Shown here piece by piece: positions 1,457 to 31,419 of a stretch of 40,019 bases of DNA. A program made the translations under genes and the position numbers. Location: positions 1-40,019 of the IMG/VR virus record IMGVR_UViG_3300010153_000021; one strand, given 5' to 3'. Source of the stretch: a virus. The number at the start of each line of letters is the position of its first letter. Positions within the stretch are counted from its first letter, which is position 1. The notes under the pieces are model-generated. The model was not told the origin of the DNA. It worked only from the letters and a program-made list of their open reading frames with translations, and ran no database searches.

Positions 1457-1690
1457 ATGGATTGGATGAATTGGGAAAACTTTGCTTACTTAATGGTAAT
1501 TATACTTGGTGCTGTTGGCACTATGGTAGCCACTAAATATAGAATGGTTGTAAAAGAATTAAAAGAAGTTGCTAAAAAATATCACGAAGCATCTAAAGAT
1601 GGTAAGATTACAAAAGCAGAGCAACAAGCTATTGCTAAAGAATGTATGGACGTTATGATGGCTGTAGTTAAGATGGTTTGGAGATTTTAA
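1457..1690 (+). CDS. Small membrane-anchored protein next to endolysin
   Basis: 77 residues: an N-terminal membrane segment at about 10-27 (AYLMVIILGAVGTMVATK), then a helical cytoplasmic part with a short KDGKITKAEQQAIAKE stretch that looks EF-hand- or antiholin-like but is not diagnostic. It lies between the putative holin and the M15 peptidase and shares its stop (TAA 1688-1690) with the peptidase start. A second holin or antiholin is plausible. No family is recognised. Confidence 0.75.
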   Translation: MDWMNWENFAYLMVIILGAVGTMVATKYRMVVKELKEVAKKYHEASKDGKITKAEQQAIAKECMDVMMAVVKMVWRF

Positions 1691-2070
1691 TGCCAAAATT
1701 TGGTAAAAGGTCAAAAGAACGAATGAAAGGTATTAAGCCTGAATTAATTAATGTTCTTAATGAGCTTATAAAAATAATGGATGTCACTATAATTGAAGGC
1801 TTAAGGACAGAAGAAAGACAAAAAGATCTTGTGGCACAAGGAAAATCAAAAACTAAATATAGTAAACACTTAGAGGGAAAGGCTGTAGATTTAGCTCCTT
1901 ACCCTATTGATTGGGAAGATAGAGAAAGATTCCACTATATGGGTGGAATGGCTCGCGGAATTGGAAAGCAACTTGGTGTAAATATTCGCTGGGGAGGAGA
2001 CTGGGATAGTGATGGAGAAATTAAAGATAATAGTTTTGACGACTTAGTGCACATAGAAATAAGAGGATAA
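1690..2070 (+). CDS. M15-family peptidoglycan peptidase (endolysin)
   Basis: 126 residues, the usual length of phage L-alanyl-D-glutamate / D-Ala-D-Ala type M15 endolysins. Zinc ligands and catalytic motifs are visible: SKHLEGKAVDLAP at 58-70 (H60, D67), WGGDWD at 101-106, and a late His in DLVHIEI (H121). It would cut the peptide cross-links of the host cell wall at lysis. A longer frame begins at ATG 1678, but 1690 is preferred because it forms the TAATG junction used throughout this region and fits the family length. No signal peptide, so it depends on a holin. Confidence 0.9.
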   Translation: MPKFGKRSKERMKGIKPELINVLNELIKIMDVTIIEGLRTEERQKDLVAQGKSKTKYSKHLEGKAVDLAPYPIDWEDRERFHYMGGMARGIGKQLGVNIRWGGDWDSDGEIKDNSFDDLVHIEIRG

Positions 2071-20575: not shown

Positions 20576-21832
20576 TTACTTTTTATTATTAAATTTTTGT
20601 ATTCTAGATTTTACGTAGTCTACCATAAGTTCATCTACTTTAATCATATTCTTGAATATAGTATCTAAATCGGCAATGGCAACTATGTCAAACAATCCAT
20701 TGAAGACTGCTTCTTTTTCTAGAAAAAATGCTCTATCTTTTTCACTACCCTCTCTGGATAACATTAGCCCAGTCTCTACTATAGAGTTACATAGCTTTAT
20801 CCAATTTGTTATTTTAATAGAGTTTGTAGTTCCTGAATGATATCTAAACTCTATAGTACCTAAATAGAATCTTGCATGTAAGTTTAATCCGTGGTATCTA
20901 CTATCATTATATTTCTCACTACTAACTCCATATCCATCATAATACATTTCTACAAAGCGTTCTGAGCTATTGCATTCTTTTAAATCGTCAAGAGGCATCT
21001 CCATCGGCTTACACCAATTACTATTACGTCTACTCTCTGGCATCATTGAGAATATATAGCTTTCTATCTTTTTATTAACTATAGATATCCATTTTAAATC
21101 TTCCCAAGTAGTATCTGTAGCGTCTATATGTATATGTAAACCACAAGACCTGTTAACATCTACACCATAAGAGCGAGACCAAGTACTTAGATTATCTATT
21201 CTCTCTTTAAGTAAGTCTCCATTAGCAGGTTTAGAGATTAACTCGATGCCATCTCCATGTATACTTCCATCGTATGTACTGCTCCACCCATGTGGGATGT
21301 CAGCTCTAGCAAAAGAGTCTCCGTTTTCATCTTTATCTGTATGGTCTAATACGACCTCAGACTCTATACCAACAAGTCTAGATATATTTAAAGTATTAAA
21401 AGTCTCTGAATTACTATGATTGACTCTTATCTTTGTACATCTATCAGCATAATGACTCGCGGGGTCTCCATCACTCTCGCAATAACAACTATCACAAACA
21501 TACTCGTCAGAACTTTCTATACATCTCATCTCATCGTGCCAAGTTGGCTCTTCGCAATGTTCACACCAATTAAAAGAATTATCTCTACAAGATTCGCAGT
21601 AATATTGGTTGTCAGGCCCATAGTACATAGCATCAGAATCCTCTACTGTTGCACAATCAGAACACTCTATATAATCATCGCTACTTTCATAGCAGTCTAC
21701 ACAGAGAGACTCTCCAGTAGATAATGATATACTAGTAGTTTCTTCTTCTCTAAATGACTCTTCGCACTCTAGACACTCGTAATCAAAGTTTTCTTCGGGT
21801 GTCTCATCAGACGCTTTATATCTTGGTGGCAT
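20576..21832 (-). CDS. Amidoligase with tandem zinc modules (copy 1)
   Basis: 418 residues from ATG 21832, chosen for a perfect AGGAGG 4 bases upstream; a frame from 21904 would add 24 Cys-rich residues and overlap the previous gene. Three four-Cys zinc modules (C20/23/44/47, C57/60/79/82, C90/93/113/116) precede an Amidoligase_2-type domain: GIESE at 155-159, DGS at 188-190, E197 with SKP, CGLHIHID at 230-237, HGLNLH at 314-319, GTIEFRYH at 325-332. This glutamine-synthetase-like family forms amide bonds between a carboxylate and an amine using ATP. Substrate unknown. Paralogue of the gene at 23256. Confidence 0.85.
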   Translation of the reverse strand: MPPRYKASDETPEENFDYECLECEESFREEETTSISLSTGESLCVDCYESSDDYIECSDCATVEDSDAMYYGPDNQYYCESCRDNSFNWCEHCEEPTWHDEMRCIESSDEYVCDSCYCESDGDPASHYADRCTKIRVNHSNSETFNTLNISRLVGIESEVVLDHTDKDENGDSFARADIPHGWSSTYDGSIHGDGIELISKPANGDLLKERIDNLSTWSRSYGVDVNRSCGLHIHIDATDTTWEDLKWISIVNKKIESYIFSMMPESRRNSNWCKPMEMPLDDLKECNSSERFVEMYYDGYGVSSEKYNDSRYHGLNLHARFYLGTIEFRYHSGTTNSIKITNWIKLCNSIVETGLMLSREGSEKDRAFFLEKEAVFNGLFDIVAIADLDTIFKNMIKVDELMVDYVKSRIQKFNNKK

Positions 21833-21840
21833 ACATCCTC

Positions 21841-22134
21841 CTATGAGATAGCAGTATGAGCGGAGATAACGGCAATTACTACAGCACTTATTACCTTTAT
21901 CCAACCCATAGATTTAAGAGAATCGTATATCTTATCTGTATCAGTAGAATCAACATCGATATCTCCAAAGTCTTTAATTTGTAAACAAAGAAACTCTCTA
22001 TACTCTTCGAAAGTCTTTCCATGTATAAATGGATTATTACTAGCTCTCTCGTATAGCTTTTTTAAGACGTATTCTTTGTTTCTCATTCTAATAGGATTGG
22101 GAAACCCTAGTAAAATAATTTTCTTATCTTTCAT
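21841..22134 (-). CDS. Small tail-anchored membrane protein
   Basis: 97 residues from ATG 22134, with AAGGAG 7 bases upstream; ATG 22167 would overlap the amidotransferase gene. The soluble part is charged, with an RMRNKEYVLKKLYERASNNP helix, and one C-terminal membrane segment follows (WIKVISAVVIAVISAHTAIS). It sits between the amidotransferase and amidoligase 1, so it could anchor or regulate the complex. This is inference from position. Confidence 0.75.
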   Translation of the reverse strand: MKDKKIILLGFPNPIRMRNKEYVLKKLYERASNNPFIHGKTFEEYREFLCLQIKDFGDIDVDSTDTDKIYDSLKSMGWIKVISAVVIAVISAHTAIS

Positions 22135-22145
22135 TTTATATCTCC

Positions 22146-23216
22146 TTATGCTCTGACTATACCACACGCTTCGGGTAGTAGTAGTTGTTTAGATAGACTA
22201 GGTTTACAAGGCTCACATACATTATAGTTGTCTACTTTGGTAAGATCTTGAGCAAACGAGTAGTCTCCACACCACTCGCACGACTCTACATCCTCGTAAC
22301 AATCATAACATATATCTATATCATCACCTAAGTTAATTAGATTAGACTCTTCGTAATAGACATTACAGGTGTCGCATTTTACTTCCTCTACAATTACCTC
22401 AGCCGCTGATTGATTGCTGTATATAGTGTTTTCGTAATACGTAGTATCAGCGTATTTCCAATTACTATATATATCACTAACCCTATCTATAGGTTTAAAG
22501 GTCTCATAGGTTACTGAGTCTCTAGAGCCAAAGTTACTAGTATCAAATGAATATATCTTATTAACTTCTAGACTTCTATTCTTTAATGCAAGTCCAGCTC
22601 TATTCATAGCACCCTCTAGTATAGCATTAGTAGAAGCCCATAGCAATATCTTAGCTTTTTTCCAATAAGCTACAGATATAGGTCTACTAGACTCTCTAGC
22701 TAGATGAATTATTTCATTACTATCTTTTACCCAAGACAATGCAAAGTCTCCATCTAACTGCTCTAAAGCATCTACATCTCTCATATTATTAAGATATGCA
22801 AATATCACTTCAGAGTCTACTTGAAGGTTTTTATTGTACTTTTTCGCTAGAGTATTATAGTTATATATTACTCCATTGTGAGCACCTAGAACATCTCCTA
22901 TCTCAAATGGATGTGCATTACGTTTTGTAATCTCTCCATGAGTTGCTAGTCTAACATGCCCTATACCTATAGTAGAATTACTATCTATTCTATCTAGTAT
23001 ATTAGACTTCCAAGTCTCGTGCTTAACTACTTTATCTGAAGCAACTATAGACTTGAATGTACTTCTACTAGCAGGGTTTATGATAGATATTCCTGTACTA
23101 TCAGTTCCTCTCACAACTGAATCACTAGCTAGATTAGTAAAAACCTCTCTTAATGTTTCTAGTTGTTGATTTGTCTGGCCGTCGCTTTTCTTAGCGAATC
23201 CGAATATTCCACACAT
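22146..23216 (-). CDS. Class II glutamine amidotransferase with C-terminal zinc modules
   Basis: 356 residues. It starts MCGIFGF, so Cys2 becomes the N-terminal nucleophile of an Ntn-hydrolase glutaminase. Matching signatures are RGTDSTG at 36-42, GHVRLATHG at 86-94, N100, HNG at 113-115 and DGDFAL at 155-160. The domain releases ammonia from glutamine. There is no synthetase domain; instead residues 281-337 hold two four-Cys modules (C281/284/303/306, C313/316/334/337) like those of the flanking amidoligases. Ammonia may pass to them. AAAGGAG precedes the ATG. Confidence 0.88.
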   Translation of the reverse strand: MCGIFGFAKKSDGQTNQQLETLREVFTNLASDSVVRGTDSTGISIINPASRSTFKSIVASDKVVKHETWKSNILDRIDSNSTIGIGHVRLATHGEITKRNAHPFEIGDVLGAHNGVIYNYNTLAKKYNKNLQVDSEVIFAYLNNMRDVDALEQLDGDFALSWVKDSNEIIHLARESSRPISVAYWKKAKILLWASTNAILEGAMNRAGLALKNRSLEVNKIYSFDTSNFGSRDSVTYETFKPIDRVSDIYSNWKYADTTYYENTIYSNQSAAEVIVEEVKCDTCNVYYEESNLINLGDDIDICYDCYEDVESCEWCGDYSFAQDLTKVDNYNVCEPCKPSLSKQLLLPEACGIVRA

Positions 23217-23255
23217 ATTATCTCCTTTGTTTTTTTGTTATTTGTTTTAAGTTCT

Positions 23256-24629
23256 CTAATGTTTGTTTCTCGACATTCTCCTTTCTATATAGTCAGCAGT
23301 TGTAGGGCCTCCTATTAATTCTATTCTTTCTATTGGAGACGTTTTTATACCTTTATAATATATAAAAACATCTCTTAATTTGTCTCTATGCCTCCTCTGA
23401 GAAGATGTTAAATTACTATCTATAGACATCAGTCTAGAAGCGTTCATAATCCAATTACATAGATTTATCCAATCTGATATATCTTTTACTTTTGTAGTAC
23501 CTTCATGATATCTAAATTCTATAGTTCCTAGATAAAACCTAGAATGTAGATTTAAACCATGGTATCTAGCATCGTTATAATGACTAGTATCAGGTATACT
23601 ATCACATATTTTTCTATACCATAACCTATGTAGACCTGATAAGGAATCTACACCCTTAAGATCTTGATAAGTTAGTTTATTTAGAGTTTTACAAAATCTA
23701 TTATTAGACCTCTCTGAAGGTAATGAATCATATATAATATGTTCTACAGCTTTCATTACATATAATAAGTTTTTCATCTCATTTACTTTAAAATCTATAG
23801 CGTTATAATGTATATGTATTCCACAGCTATCATCTACGAAAGCGTCTTTATCTTGTATATTTGAATTTAATCTATATAATGCTTTATCTATATCGTCTCC
23901 TACTATCGGACTAGACGTTCGTAGCTCTGCTCCTCCACTACTTAATGAACCATCGTATACAGCTTCCCACATATCAGGAGTATCTACATAATGCTCAAAA
24001 TCGTGTCTATCAAAGCTCTCTGTATCGCAGTCTATTAACTCTGGGTATATTAACTCTGCTTCGATACCTACGTGCCGTCGTACTTTGTTTATAGTATTTA
24101 TAGGCTTTTTAAAGCTACTAGATGGAAGTCTCATAGGAGGTCTACTCGTAATACTATCTACTATATTAGAATAACATCTCTCACAATAACATCTATCTGA
24201 ATAATAAGAAAATTTATCGCTACTTATCTCTCTATGCTTATCTCTGATAATTTCTCTTCGAAGACTCATTCTATTAGAAGAAAGAAATTCTCGCTGACGC
24301 TCATTGAAAGTTAAGTCTATAATCTCGTAATCATCACAATCTACACATGAGATTATCATATCATCGATGCATCTATTACAAATACAAAATATATTAAACT
24401 CTTCAAAAGGTGTAGTCATCTCTTTTAAAGTTTCTGAGGAAATTCTATTATCTACAAAAGATTCTAGATATCTACTTTGCTCGCAAAGCCCACACTCTTG
24501 AGTCCTATCATGTATACATTCACTACATATATATCCATCAAGTCTACTTGAATAGTAGCTCTCTTCTAGTTCTATATCTGCACCACAGCCCTCGCAACAA
24601 GTCATGTCTACTGTTATCAGAGTAGTCAT
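23256..24629 (-). CDS. Amidoligase with tandem zinc modules (copy 2)
   Basis: 457 residues. Zinc modules: C12/15/35/38, then C46/49 with C82/84/87, and C95/98 with C147/149/152. The C-terminal domain is a paralogue of copy 1: GIEAE at 188-192, DGS at 226-228, E235 with SSP, CGIHIHYN at 269-276, YHGLNLHSRFYLGTIEFRYH at 356-375. Shared residues are those expected for ATP/metal and substrate binding in Amidoligase_2. The two copies differ outside the core, so two substrates or two steps are likely. AAGGTGA lies before ATG 24629, which overlaps the upstream stop (TAATG). Confidence 0.85.
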   Translation of the reverse strand: MTTLITVDMTCCEGCGADIELEESYYSSRLDGYICSECIHDRTQECGLCEQSRYLESFVDNRISSETLKEMTTPFEEFNIFCICNRCIDDMIISCVDCDDYEIIDLTFNERQREFLSSNRMSLRREIIRDKHREISSDKFSYYSDRCYCERCYSNIVDSITSRPPMRLPSSSFKKPINTINKVRRHVGIEAELIYPELIDCDTESFDRHDFEHYVDTPDMWEAVYDGSLSSGGAELRTSSPIVGDDIDKALYRLNSNIQDKDAFVDDSCGIHIHYNAIDFKVNEMKNLLYVMKAVEHIIYDSLPSERSNNRFCKTLNKLTYQDLKGVDSLSGLHRLWYRKICDSIPDTSHYNDARYHGLNLHSRFYLGTIEFRYHEGTTKVKDISDWINLCNWIMNASRLMSIDSNLTSSQRRHRDKLRDVFIYYKGIKTSPIERIELIGGPTTADYIERRMSRNKH

Positions 24630-24769
24630 TAGTTCACCTTATCTATTATATAAGAAACTAGAGACTTAAAAGGTAGAGCAATTACAGCCGCTACTAATGT
24701 ATATATACTAGGGTGTGCCTCTCCACATAGTCCTGATATATGTAATAATATATGGTATATCTCATTCAT
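24629..24769 (-). CDS. Membrane micropeptide
   Basis: 46 residues with one membrane segment (about 21-39, IYTLVAAVIALPFKSLVSY). AAGGA lies before the ATG. It ends TAATG with amidoligase 2 and begins with an ATGA overlap with the gene before it, so it is translated with its neighbours. No family recognised. Confidence 0.6.
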   Translation of the reverse strand: MNEIYHILLHISGLCGEAHPSIYTLVAAVIALPFKSLVSYIIDKVN

Positions 24770-28427: not shown

Positions 28428-28722
28428 AACAGTTAAAAAACAAATTAAAGTAGGCGGTCATAACTATAACGTAGTTGAAATGAATCTTAGCCCTAATAAA
28501 GACGGTAAGCAGCTGTTAGGTATGCACGACGTTAAGGAAAATAAGATATTTATTGATGAGTCAATGACACATACACGTAAAGTAGAAACGTTTATGCATG
28601 AGATTATACATGTTATATATACTAATTCGGGTGCTAGTCATGATGAAGGTGCTATAGATGCATTATCTAATGGCTTGTTGCAGTTAGGTGTAGCTGACTA
28701 TTTATGGAAAAAGGTACAGTAA
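28420..28722 (+). CDS. HEXXH zinc metallopeptidase-like protein
   Basis: 100 residues from ATG 28420. The helix ETFMHEIIHVIY has HEIIH (H60, E61, H64), and a downstream Glu in HDEGAIDALSNGL (E76) is a likely third ligand. This is the minimal gluzincin layout of phage ImmA/IrrE-like proteins. Substrate unknown; cleavage of a host or phage regulator is possible. Its TAA overlaps the next ATG. Confidence 0.75.
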   Translation: MSKTVKKQIKVGGHNYNVVEMNLSPNKDGKQLLGMHDVKENKIFIDESMTHTRKVETFMHEIIHVIYTNSGASHDEGAIDALSNGLLQLGVADYLWKKVQ

Positions 28723-29105
28723 TGCCTAAATTCACAGCAAATACAGTAAAAGAAGTAAAAAGTAAACCTAAATCTATTGTGAGTAAGATAGAAAAAGAAT
28801 GGCCAGATATGACATCAGAGTTTAAAAAGATACAGAATGAGCAATATGTATTATTTTGTATTAAGCAAAACGATTATGGAACTGGTAATATAGCTATGGG
28901 AACAATGTTAGATACTCCTAGTAACATAAGGCTGTCTTTGACAGGACTTATTGTTAGGATGAATGACAAAATCAATAGACTCATGAACTTAGTAGTTAAA
29001 AATGCAGAGACTCCTAAAAATGAGCCGATTATTGATTCTTTTCAGGATTTATCCGTTTATGGAATAATGTCTCAAATAGTTCATAATGGAAAATGGGGAA
29101 GGTAA
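28722..29105 (+). CDS. Nmad1 (DUF1599)-family protein
   Basis: 127 residues from ATG 28722 (TAATG). The alpha-helical signature is clear: YVLFCIKQNDYGTGN at 42-56, LIVRMNDKINRLMNL at 76-90, DSFQDLSVYGIM at 105-116. This matches 'nucleotide modification associated domain 1', proposed from gene neighbourhoods to act with DNA-base modification. Biochemical activity is unproven. A methyltransferase is present elsewhere in the genome. Confidence 0.8.
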   Translation: MPKFTANTVKEVKSKPKSIVSKIEKEWPDMTSEFKKIQNEQYVLFCIKQNDYGTGNIAMGTMLDTPSNIRLSLTGLIVRMNDKINRLMNLVVKNAETPKNEPIIDSFQDLSVYGIMSQIVHNGKWGR

Positions 29106-30829: not shown

Positions 30830-31049
30830 GTTGTTGTTATTCTTTATACCTACAGTATTACTTGCTAATGAAGATTCTCTTGATTTTGACTTATGGAATG
30901 ATGTTAGTTGGGACACGATAACACATATAAACGAAATAGAAGGAGAAGTAGAGCAGGTAATAAGCGTTGCTGGTGTAAGAGGAAGTGAAGCTAAAAATGA
31001 AATATTAAATTATCTTTGGTATAGGAGGAGAGCAAAAAGAGATGGATAA
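30813..31049 (+). CDS. Signal-peptide (exported) small protein
   Basis: 78 residues from GTG 30813, which has GGAAG 6 bases upstream and gives a clean signal peptide: basic NLKSR, hydrophobic LLLFFIPTVLLA, likely cut before NEDS. The mature part is acidic, then basic. No lipobox Cys. It overlaps TerS by 17 bases and the GGCT gene by 8. Export to the periplasm is expected; role unknown. Confidence 0.65.
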   Translation: MNLKSRLLLFFIPTVLLANEDSLDFDLWNDVSWDTITHINEIEGEVEQVISVAGVRGSEAKNEILNYLWYRRRAKRDG

Positions 31050-31419
31050 ATTAGCAGTGTACGGAACTTTAAGAAAGGGAAGTAAAGAGACTTATCGCGT
31101 TAAGGATGTTTCCTTGGTTTTTCCGGGTCATAAAAATTTCCCCGCAATAATTAAAAACAAAAATGGAAATGGGGCTGTAGTAGAACTACTTGGAGTTGAT
31201 GATGCTGACTTAATTTCTTATGATAATTATGAAGGTGTCAGTAGCGGTTTATATACCAGAGAAAAAATTAACGTCGAAGATAAGGATGGAGATTTAACTA
31301 CTAAAGCGTGGATATATATAGCTGGGCCCTTATTAATGAGTTATAAATCTGTATTTGAAGAGGTTCCGGAGCAAGATTGGCTAAGTCAAAAAACACAAAA
31401 GCTTCTAAATTCAATATAA
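31042..31419 (+). CDS. Gamma-glutamylcyclotransferase-like (GGCT/AIG2) enzyme
   Basis: 125 residues. VYGTLRKG at 6-13 is the family's substrate-binding loop, and YDNYEGVSSGLYTRE holds the expected catalytic Glu (E64). Such enzymes release 5-oxoproline from gamma-glutamyl compounds. From memory, GGCT-like genes are linked to amidoligases in gene-neighbourhood studies, so this may belong with the 20.6-24.6 kb cluster although 6 kb away and on the other strand. It overlaps the terminase by 43 bases. Confidence 0.82.
   Translation: MDKLAVYGTLRKGSKETYRVKDVSLVFPGHKNFPAIIKNKNGNGAVVELLGVDDADLISYDNYEGVSSGLYTREKINVEDKDGDLTTKAWIYIAGPLLMSYKSVFEEVPEQDWLSQKTQKLLNSI

Follow-up and report, generated by a model that had tools for sequence, protein, structure and literature searches.

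The virus record IMGVR_UViG_3300010153_000021, analysed over its whole length of 40,019 bases (hereafter the window), is a contig of an uncultivated phage, a virus of bacteria, which carries on its minus strand an operon of probable amide-forming chemistry. A class II glutamine amidotransferase (GAT), a small protein of about 97 amino acids termed F3 and an amidoligase (ligase 2) are inherited together as one operon within the early (replication) gene block, and a second amidoligase (ligase 1) precedes them in the window. A sequence-only reading of this DNA had described one operon in which a class II glutamine amidotransferase lies between two Amidoligase_2 proteins; this is confirmed, with the three open reading frames (ORFs) at the coordinates given and on the minus strand. 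F3 is a new conserved component, missed by that reading. The data also suggest that a gamma-glutamyl(amine) cyclotransferase (GGACT) encoded elsewhere in the window is functionally tied to the cassette, a link that had not been drawn. The features concerned are the following:

23256..24629, minus strand: ligase 1, a 457-residue Amidoligase_2 protein with an N-terminal cysteine-rich region of CxxC pairs and a predicted glutamine synthetase (GS)/GCS2-type fold.
24174..24596, minus strand: CxxC zinc-finger-like region of ligase 1, with C12, C35, C46, C95, C98, C149 and C152 invariant.
22146..23216, minus strand: GAT, a glutamine amidotransferase of class II (Ntn) that lacks a synthase domain and bears a C-terminal module of the form CxxC...CxxC.
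22299..22376, minus strand: C-terminal CxxC...CxxC module of GAT, with C281, C284, C303 and C306 invariant in 32 relatives.
21841..22134, minus strand: F3, a protein of about 97 residues without family match, between GAT and ligase 2.
21844..21894, minus strand: hydrophobic C-terminal segment of F3 (Kyte-Doolittle scale), VISAVVIAVISAHTAIS in the window.
20576..21832, minus strand: ligase 2, a 418-residue Amidoligase_2 protein, its start moved to the ATG at 21832.
21485..21664, minus strand: tandem CxxC fingers in ligase 2, of LIM-like type, with C57, C60, C79, C82, C90, C93 and C113 invariant.
31042..31419, plus strand: GGACT (AIG2-like), between the genes of the small and large terminase subunits.

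The cassette stands at the head of the minus-strand replication block, in the order ligase 1, GAT, F3 and ligase 2; next come the genes of a PD-(D/E)XK nuclease and of a protein weakly resembling SSB. The gaps on either side of F3 are of about 10 bases each, that between ligase 1 and GAT of about 40 bases. A strong ribosome-binding (Shine-Dalgarno) site precedes each of GAT, F3 and ligase 2, and no terminator-like site was found when the coding strand of the operon was scanned. Pairwise ratios of non-synonymous to synonymous substitution rates (dN/dS) lie at 0.11-0.18 for F3, 0.12-0.24 for GAT, 0.22-0.30 for ligase 2 and 0.34-0.51 for ligase 1; all four genes are thus held by purifying selection, ligase 1 least strictly. 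The ligase 2 frame extends from 20576 to a TTG at 21904, which has been rejected as start codon: the ATG at 21832 is preceded by an AGGAGG site and its methionine is invariant in 33 of 33 relatives, and this ATG is almost certainly the true start.

The three enzymes score well over the curated Pfam cut-offs. Ligase 1 (P0003) and ligase 2 (P0001) match Amidoligase_2 (PF12224) with E-values of 2.2e-29 and 1.9e-24, corresponding to 103.5 and 87.3 bits against a curated cut-off of 22, and GAT (P0002) matches GATase_6 (PF13522) with an E-value of 4.7e-19. The PHROG scan returns an amidoligase family for the ligases and an aminotransferase family for GAT. Compared with the Protein Data Bank (PDB), the GAT profile matches the glutaminase domains of GlmS, PurF and AsnB; Cys2 (after the initiator methionine), R36, the motifs GHxRxAT and HNG, and D134 are invariant across its relatives, RGxxSTG and DS invariant or nearly so. 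GAT has no fused synthase domain, and the adjoining ligases may be the users of the ammonia that it releases. Alignments of the ligases show the motifs GIExE, DGS, CGxHxH, NxHxR and GTIEFR to be invariant or nearly so. The predicted catalytic residues of ligase 1 (E190, E192, D226, C269-H274, N360, H362, R364, E371 and R373) are invariant in 31 relatives, those of ligase 2 in 33. Every motif quoted in the sequence-only reading could be found again, invariant or near-invariant in 31-33 non-redundant relatives per protein. Chance or misannotation as the source of the cassette is ruled out by the profile scores together with this residue conservation.

The AlphaFold2 (AF2) model of ligase 1 has a pLDDT (predicted local distance difference test) of 88. 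The best 50 Foldseek matches to it are all YbdK (GCS2), glutamine synthetase, PafA, Dop or GshA, with the low TM-scores that distant relatives carrying additional domains should give, and the active-site residues of the GS/GCS2 fold (ExE, HxH and E-x-R) fall in invariant columns of both ligases. Comparing single sequences with YbdK gave no significant match, and the predicted membership of the ligases in the glutamine synthetase/GCS2 fold superfamily is therefore a reading of the model. ATP-dependent amide bond formation may be expected of them at the level of the family; none of the papers found reports an assay of an Amidoligase_2 (PF12224) member. The pairing of an ammonia-freeing amidotransferase with ATP-driven amide ligases, as first proposed, thus stands as far as family, catalytic residues and predicted fold can carry it.

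Both ligases align from end to end, fingers included, and are thus paralogues. The tree places ligase 2 in a single group (94/74), while the ligase 1 sequences make up a second group that is weaker (43/82). Most ligase 1 relatives, such as that at L024:5947-7974 (loci are numbered with the prefix L), bear an additional N-terminal region of about 100-220 amino acids, which is lacking in the window, L001 and L002. Viral contigs gave no match when searched with single ligase sequences, and the relatives found there were reached only by alignment-based searches. At the sensitivity used, 124 phage records match ligase 1 and 348 match GAT.

Zinc-finger-like CxxC modules with invariant cysteines are present on all three enzymes, as N-terminal runs in the ligases and at the C-terminus of GAT. 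The profile of ligase 2 matches LIM domains of solved structures (best E-value 2e-5). Among the amidoligases of cultured phages that were compared, most have no such fingers, two Manatee Spring phages being the exceptions, and several of the neighbouring GATs have a C-terminal finger. In bacterial amidoligase loci, fingers were seen in none of 60, and a neighbouring GAT in one of 60.

F3 is present in all 55 examined loci that hold both GAT and ligase 2. A search of viral contigs with its own profile returned 67 loci, 66 of them newly fetched and many on contigs already seen; ligase 2 follows in each, and GAT precedes wherever the contig reaches that far (two contigs start inside F3). No homologue was found among 50,697 phage records by tblastn, in cultured phages by profile or in bacterial genomes, nor any match in the PDB by sequence or by fold. 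In the AF2 model (pLDDT 80), short strands and helices lead up to a hydrophobic segment at the end, which is modelled with less confidence. This segment, mostly C-terminal in the family, has a Kyte-Doolittle mean of 2.10 in the window, with a family median of 1.53. The protein ends in NIGV, NYGIA, TAIS and similar termini, without the GGE or GGQ end of Pup. A match to Clenterotox (Clostridium enterotoxin), at 13.8 bits against a cut-off of 25, has been taken as chance. The model has a moderate structural match to two viral proteins of 79-86 residues, A0A516M232 and A0A516M4C6 (TM-scores of about 0.57-0.68), which are possible distant relatives.

The triad of ligase, GAT and ligase is not what is conserved as a unit: 12 loci have no ligase 1 yet retain GAT, F3 and ligase 2. 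In most of these loci a pyrimidine-dimer DNA glycosylase (PF03013; 25364-25825 on the minus strand of the window) takes its place directly upstream of GAT. In L198, a deep member that shares the phage backbone, GAT and ligase 2 are the only cassette genes of the operon. Ligase 1 and F3 are thus, from these 12 loci and L198, later additions to, or losses from, a core of GAT and ligase 2. A scattered distribution without co-occurrence, which would have spoken against the sequence-only reading, was not found: the genes stand together throughout the lineage, and GAT adjoins a ligase in several unrelated phages. Independent support comes from these unrelated phages, where GGCT is often present as well; examples of adjacency are Arthrobacter phage Salgado (in the order GGCT, amidoligase, GAT), HP1, Kuravirus Bas88 and Zobellviridae. 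Ten reference phages were picked by their ligase alone: a GAT lies nearby in six of them (as a weak match in one case), and a GGCT in two others, Bacillus 035JT001 and Geobacillus GR1.

GGACT matches PF06094 with an E-value of 6.5e-12 (46.5 bits against a cut-off of 22.8), shows the motifs YGTLRKG and NYEG, and is present in 29 of 30 related records. In the Zobellviridae phage KZY1, a class I gamma-glutamyl hydrolase (Peptidase_C26, PuuD-like; L066:4160-4729) lies beside GGCT in the cassette, which supports gamma-glutamyl chemistry.

The phage of the window encodes a P22-like portal, an SU10-like capsid and terminase, with a G + C content of 34.6%. Its best-covered terminase matches among the 50,697 phage records are about 26% identical and all matches are below 60%, so that the phage belongs to an uncultivated lineage. 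A Peptidase_M15_4 domain (D-Ala-D-Ala carboxypeptidase-like; 1678-2070, plus strand) is a candidate endolysin. Directly upstream of ligase 1, F6 (24629-24769, minus strand) is a conserved hydrophobic protein of 46-48 residues with the motif LLGSCGExHxSLLTI, seen in 42 loci; it has been rejected as a part of the cassette because it is kept in the phage backbone where ligase 1 is absent. Two differing copies of the entire ligase-GAT-F3-ligase cassette (L021 and L032) are found on the 63.9-kb contig IMGVR_UViG_3300030101_002855, reflecting either an assembly fusion of two phages or a genuine duplication. PADLOC returned no match, and membership in a defence system has been rejected.

The interpretation tentatively preferred here, which falls somewhat short of probable, is that of a rebuilt podovirus cassette for the glutamine-dependent amidation of an envelope peptide, with F3 as a partner at the membrane. 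We infer the nature of this substrate from what has been published about related cassettes, together with the hydrophobic tail of F3. Judging from the families, GAT would hydrolyse glutamine and deliver ammonia, and the GS-fold ligases would activate a carboxylate with ATP and couple it to this ammonia or to another amine. GGACT, whose family cuts gamma-glutamyl amides, would tidy or reverse the product. More speculatively, one ammonia source might feed one or two ligases, the CxxC/LIM-like modules might hold the three enzymes together, and F3, through its hydrophobic C-terminus, could be a non-catalytic partner that places the complex at the inner membrane; both features hint at complex assembly. 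The ligases might then amidate free carboxylates of peptidoglycan stem peptides (the alpha-carboxylate of D-Glu, the epsilon-carboxylate of meso-diaminopimelic acid) or of another envelope peptide during infection. Peptides altered in this way could change the action of wall enzymes of the host or of rival phages, for example by blocking superinfection. Ligase 1 is a zinc-finger-bearing paralogue gained or lost later. Peptidoglycan modification of the AsnB/LtsA type is fed by class II amidotransferases, that of MurT/GatD by a class I enzyme. If this interpretation is right, phages remodel the wall chemistry of their host during infection.

Several observations weigh against envelope amidation. 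The peptidoglycan target is itself taken over by analogy from a hypothesis of the literature. Homology between the GAT finger and those of the ligases was not demonstrated against cysteine-preserving shuffles, and what the three enzymes share is therefore only a type of module. F3 looks dispensable, since L198 keeps GAT and ligase 2 without it, and its hydrophobic segment is borderline as a membrane helix in most members, in a region where the model is uncertain. GGACT lies in a separate transcription unit, in the packaging region. A COOH-NH2 ligase (PF14395) was detected in none of the 30 related records and in two of two control phages (one below cut-off); likewise, a RimK-like ATP-grasp ligase was detected in none of the 30 records and in four of four control phages (three below cut-off). 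Both enzymes belong to the cassette as it has been described. Co-occurrence within the lineage reflects, almost entirely, shared ancestry rather than independent events, the loci being those of one viral lineage.

A possible, if doubtful, alternative is protein modification, in which the GS-fold ligases would add ammonia or a gamma-glutamyl or peptide group to a host or phage protein, in the manner of RimK or PafA, with GGACT or GAT as eraser and a host replication, transcription or translation factor as target. The resemblance of the ligase fold to PafA and Dop, the position of the cassette at the head of the replication operon, the LIM-like fingers, which are typical protein-interaction modules, and the RimK-like ATP-grasp enzyme of related phages would all fit. 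This ATP-grasp enzyme is absent here, however, no tag protein can be recognised, and the C-terminus of F3 is not that of a Pup.

Nitrogen salvage, as a form of auxiliary metabolism, is unlikely. The ligases would in this case turn amines or ammonia into gamma-glutamyl amides, GGACT would release 5-oxoproline and the amine, and GAT would recycle ammonia. The near-constant presence of GGACT speaks for such small-metabolite chemistry, as does the PuuD-like hydrolase that joins the cassette in one relative, but GGACT is encoded outside the operon, and two finger-bearing ligases with a dedicated partner seem excessive for bulk metabolism. Phage ZRK32 carries such genes and its effect on growth has been ascribed to nitrogen metabolism, although the available part of that article does not link the effect to these genes by mutation (PMC10945688).

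Amidation of a modified base or nucleotide as a protection against restriction is a very unlikely function. The cassette does lie in the replication operon, and the same phage encodes a C5 cytosine methyltransferase and, at 28704-29105 on the plus strand, a product conserved in related phages that weakly matches DUF1599 ('nucleotide modification associated domain 1') and also phrog_1485. The DUF1599 match is nevertheless below cut-off, and no gene for a base precursor, such as a hydroxymethylase or a nucleotide kinase, came up when most of the larger ORFs of the window were scanned against Pfam and PHROG. Least credible of all is that F3, instead of acting as a scaffold, serves the ligases as a carrier or substrate made by the ribosome, its conserved C-terminal end being amidated or joined to an amine or amino acid with glutamine-derived ammonia; if true, this would be a phage-encoded carrier-protein or tagging system, to be compared with Pup or with amino-group carrier proteins, that has no described counterpart in viruses.

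The idea of an undescribed system, put forward in the sequence-only reading, holds only in part, for the arrangement and for F3. The association of amidoligase, GAT and cyclotransferase as such is an already recognised podovirus cassette (PMC5498523, PMC3890496, PMC10580990). Duhaime et al. (2017) described a cassette of seven genes in RIO-1-like podoviruses, held, as a hypothesis only, to modify peptidoglycan and including GGCT, GAT, a gamma-glutamyl amidoligase, a second amidoligase and an ATP-grasp enzyme; it is common to phiEco32, PA11, tf, LUZ24 and others and is thought to prevent superinfection (PMC5498523). The same gene set has been annotated in the LUZ24-like phage UFV-P2 (PMC3890496), and the wall-modification idea was repeated later, with functions said to remain to be explored (PMC10580990). 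No experimental test of the function of such cassettes was found in the literature searched, the coverage of which was incomplete.

The window shares with the phiEco32 (Kuravirus), RIO-1, HP1, LUZ24 and Zobellviridae cassettes the set of class II GAT, Amidoligase_2 and GGACT/AIG2, which in the known examples lie together in the early region. Its GAT also resembles many of those of the phiEco32/RIO-1-type phages in its C-terminal CxxC fingers. In contrast to these cassettes, it has two Amidoligase_2 proteins with N-terminal fingers, F3, and a GGACT located in the packaging region, and it lacks the COOH-NH2 ligase (PF14395) and the RimK-like ATP-grasp enzyme. Arthrobacter phages Salgado and Ottawa encode the same enzyme families side by side (amidoligase and GAT, with GGCT annotated in Salgado), but with a single ligase, and without fingers or F3.

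Outside phages, peptidoglycan amidation by MurT/GatD and AsnB/LtsA relies on a glutamine-fed ligase plus amidotransferase, as proposed for the window cassette. MurT is a Mur ligase working with the class I GatD, and AsnB is a single fused protein with a different synthase fold, whereas the window combines ligases of predicted GS fold with a separate class II GAT. The Pup-PafA/Dop system offers another parallel, through the predicted fold superfamily of the ligases and a small protein encoded nearby. It differs in that F3 has a predicted folded structure and not the C-terminal motif of Pup, that an amidotransferase is present, and that no proteasome or Dop was seen. Amidoligase, GAT and cyclotransferase genes are widespread in phages, and this lineage offers a simplified version, reduced in some members to GAT, F3, one ligase and GGACT, which could be reconstructed and assayed in a laboratory strain. 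The window cassette is not categorically new, and is best described as the podovirus amidoligase/GAT/GGCT cassette in a reduced, rebuilt form.

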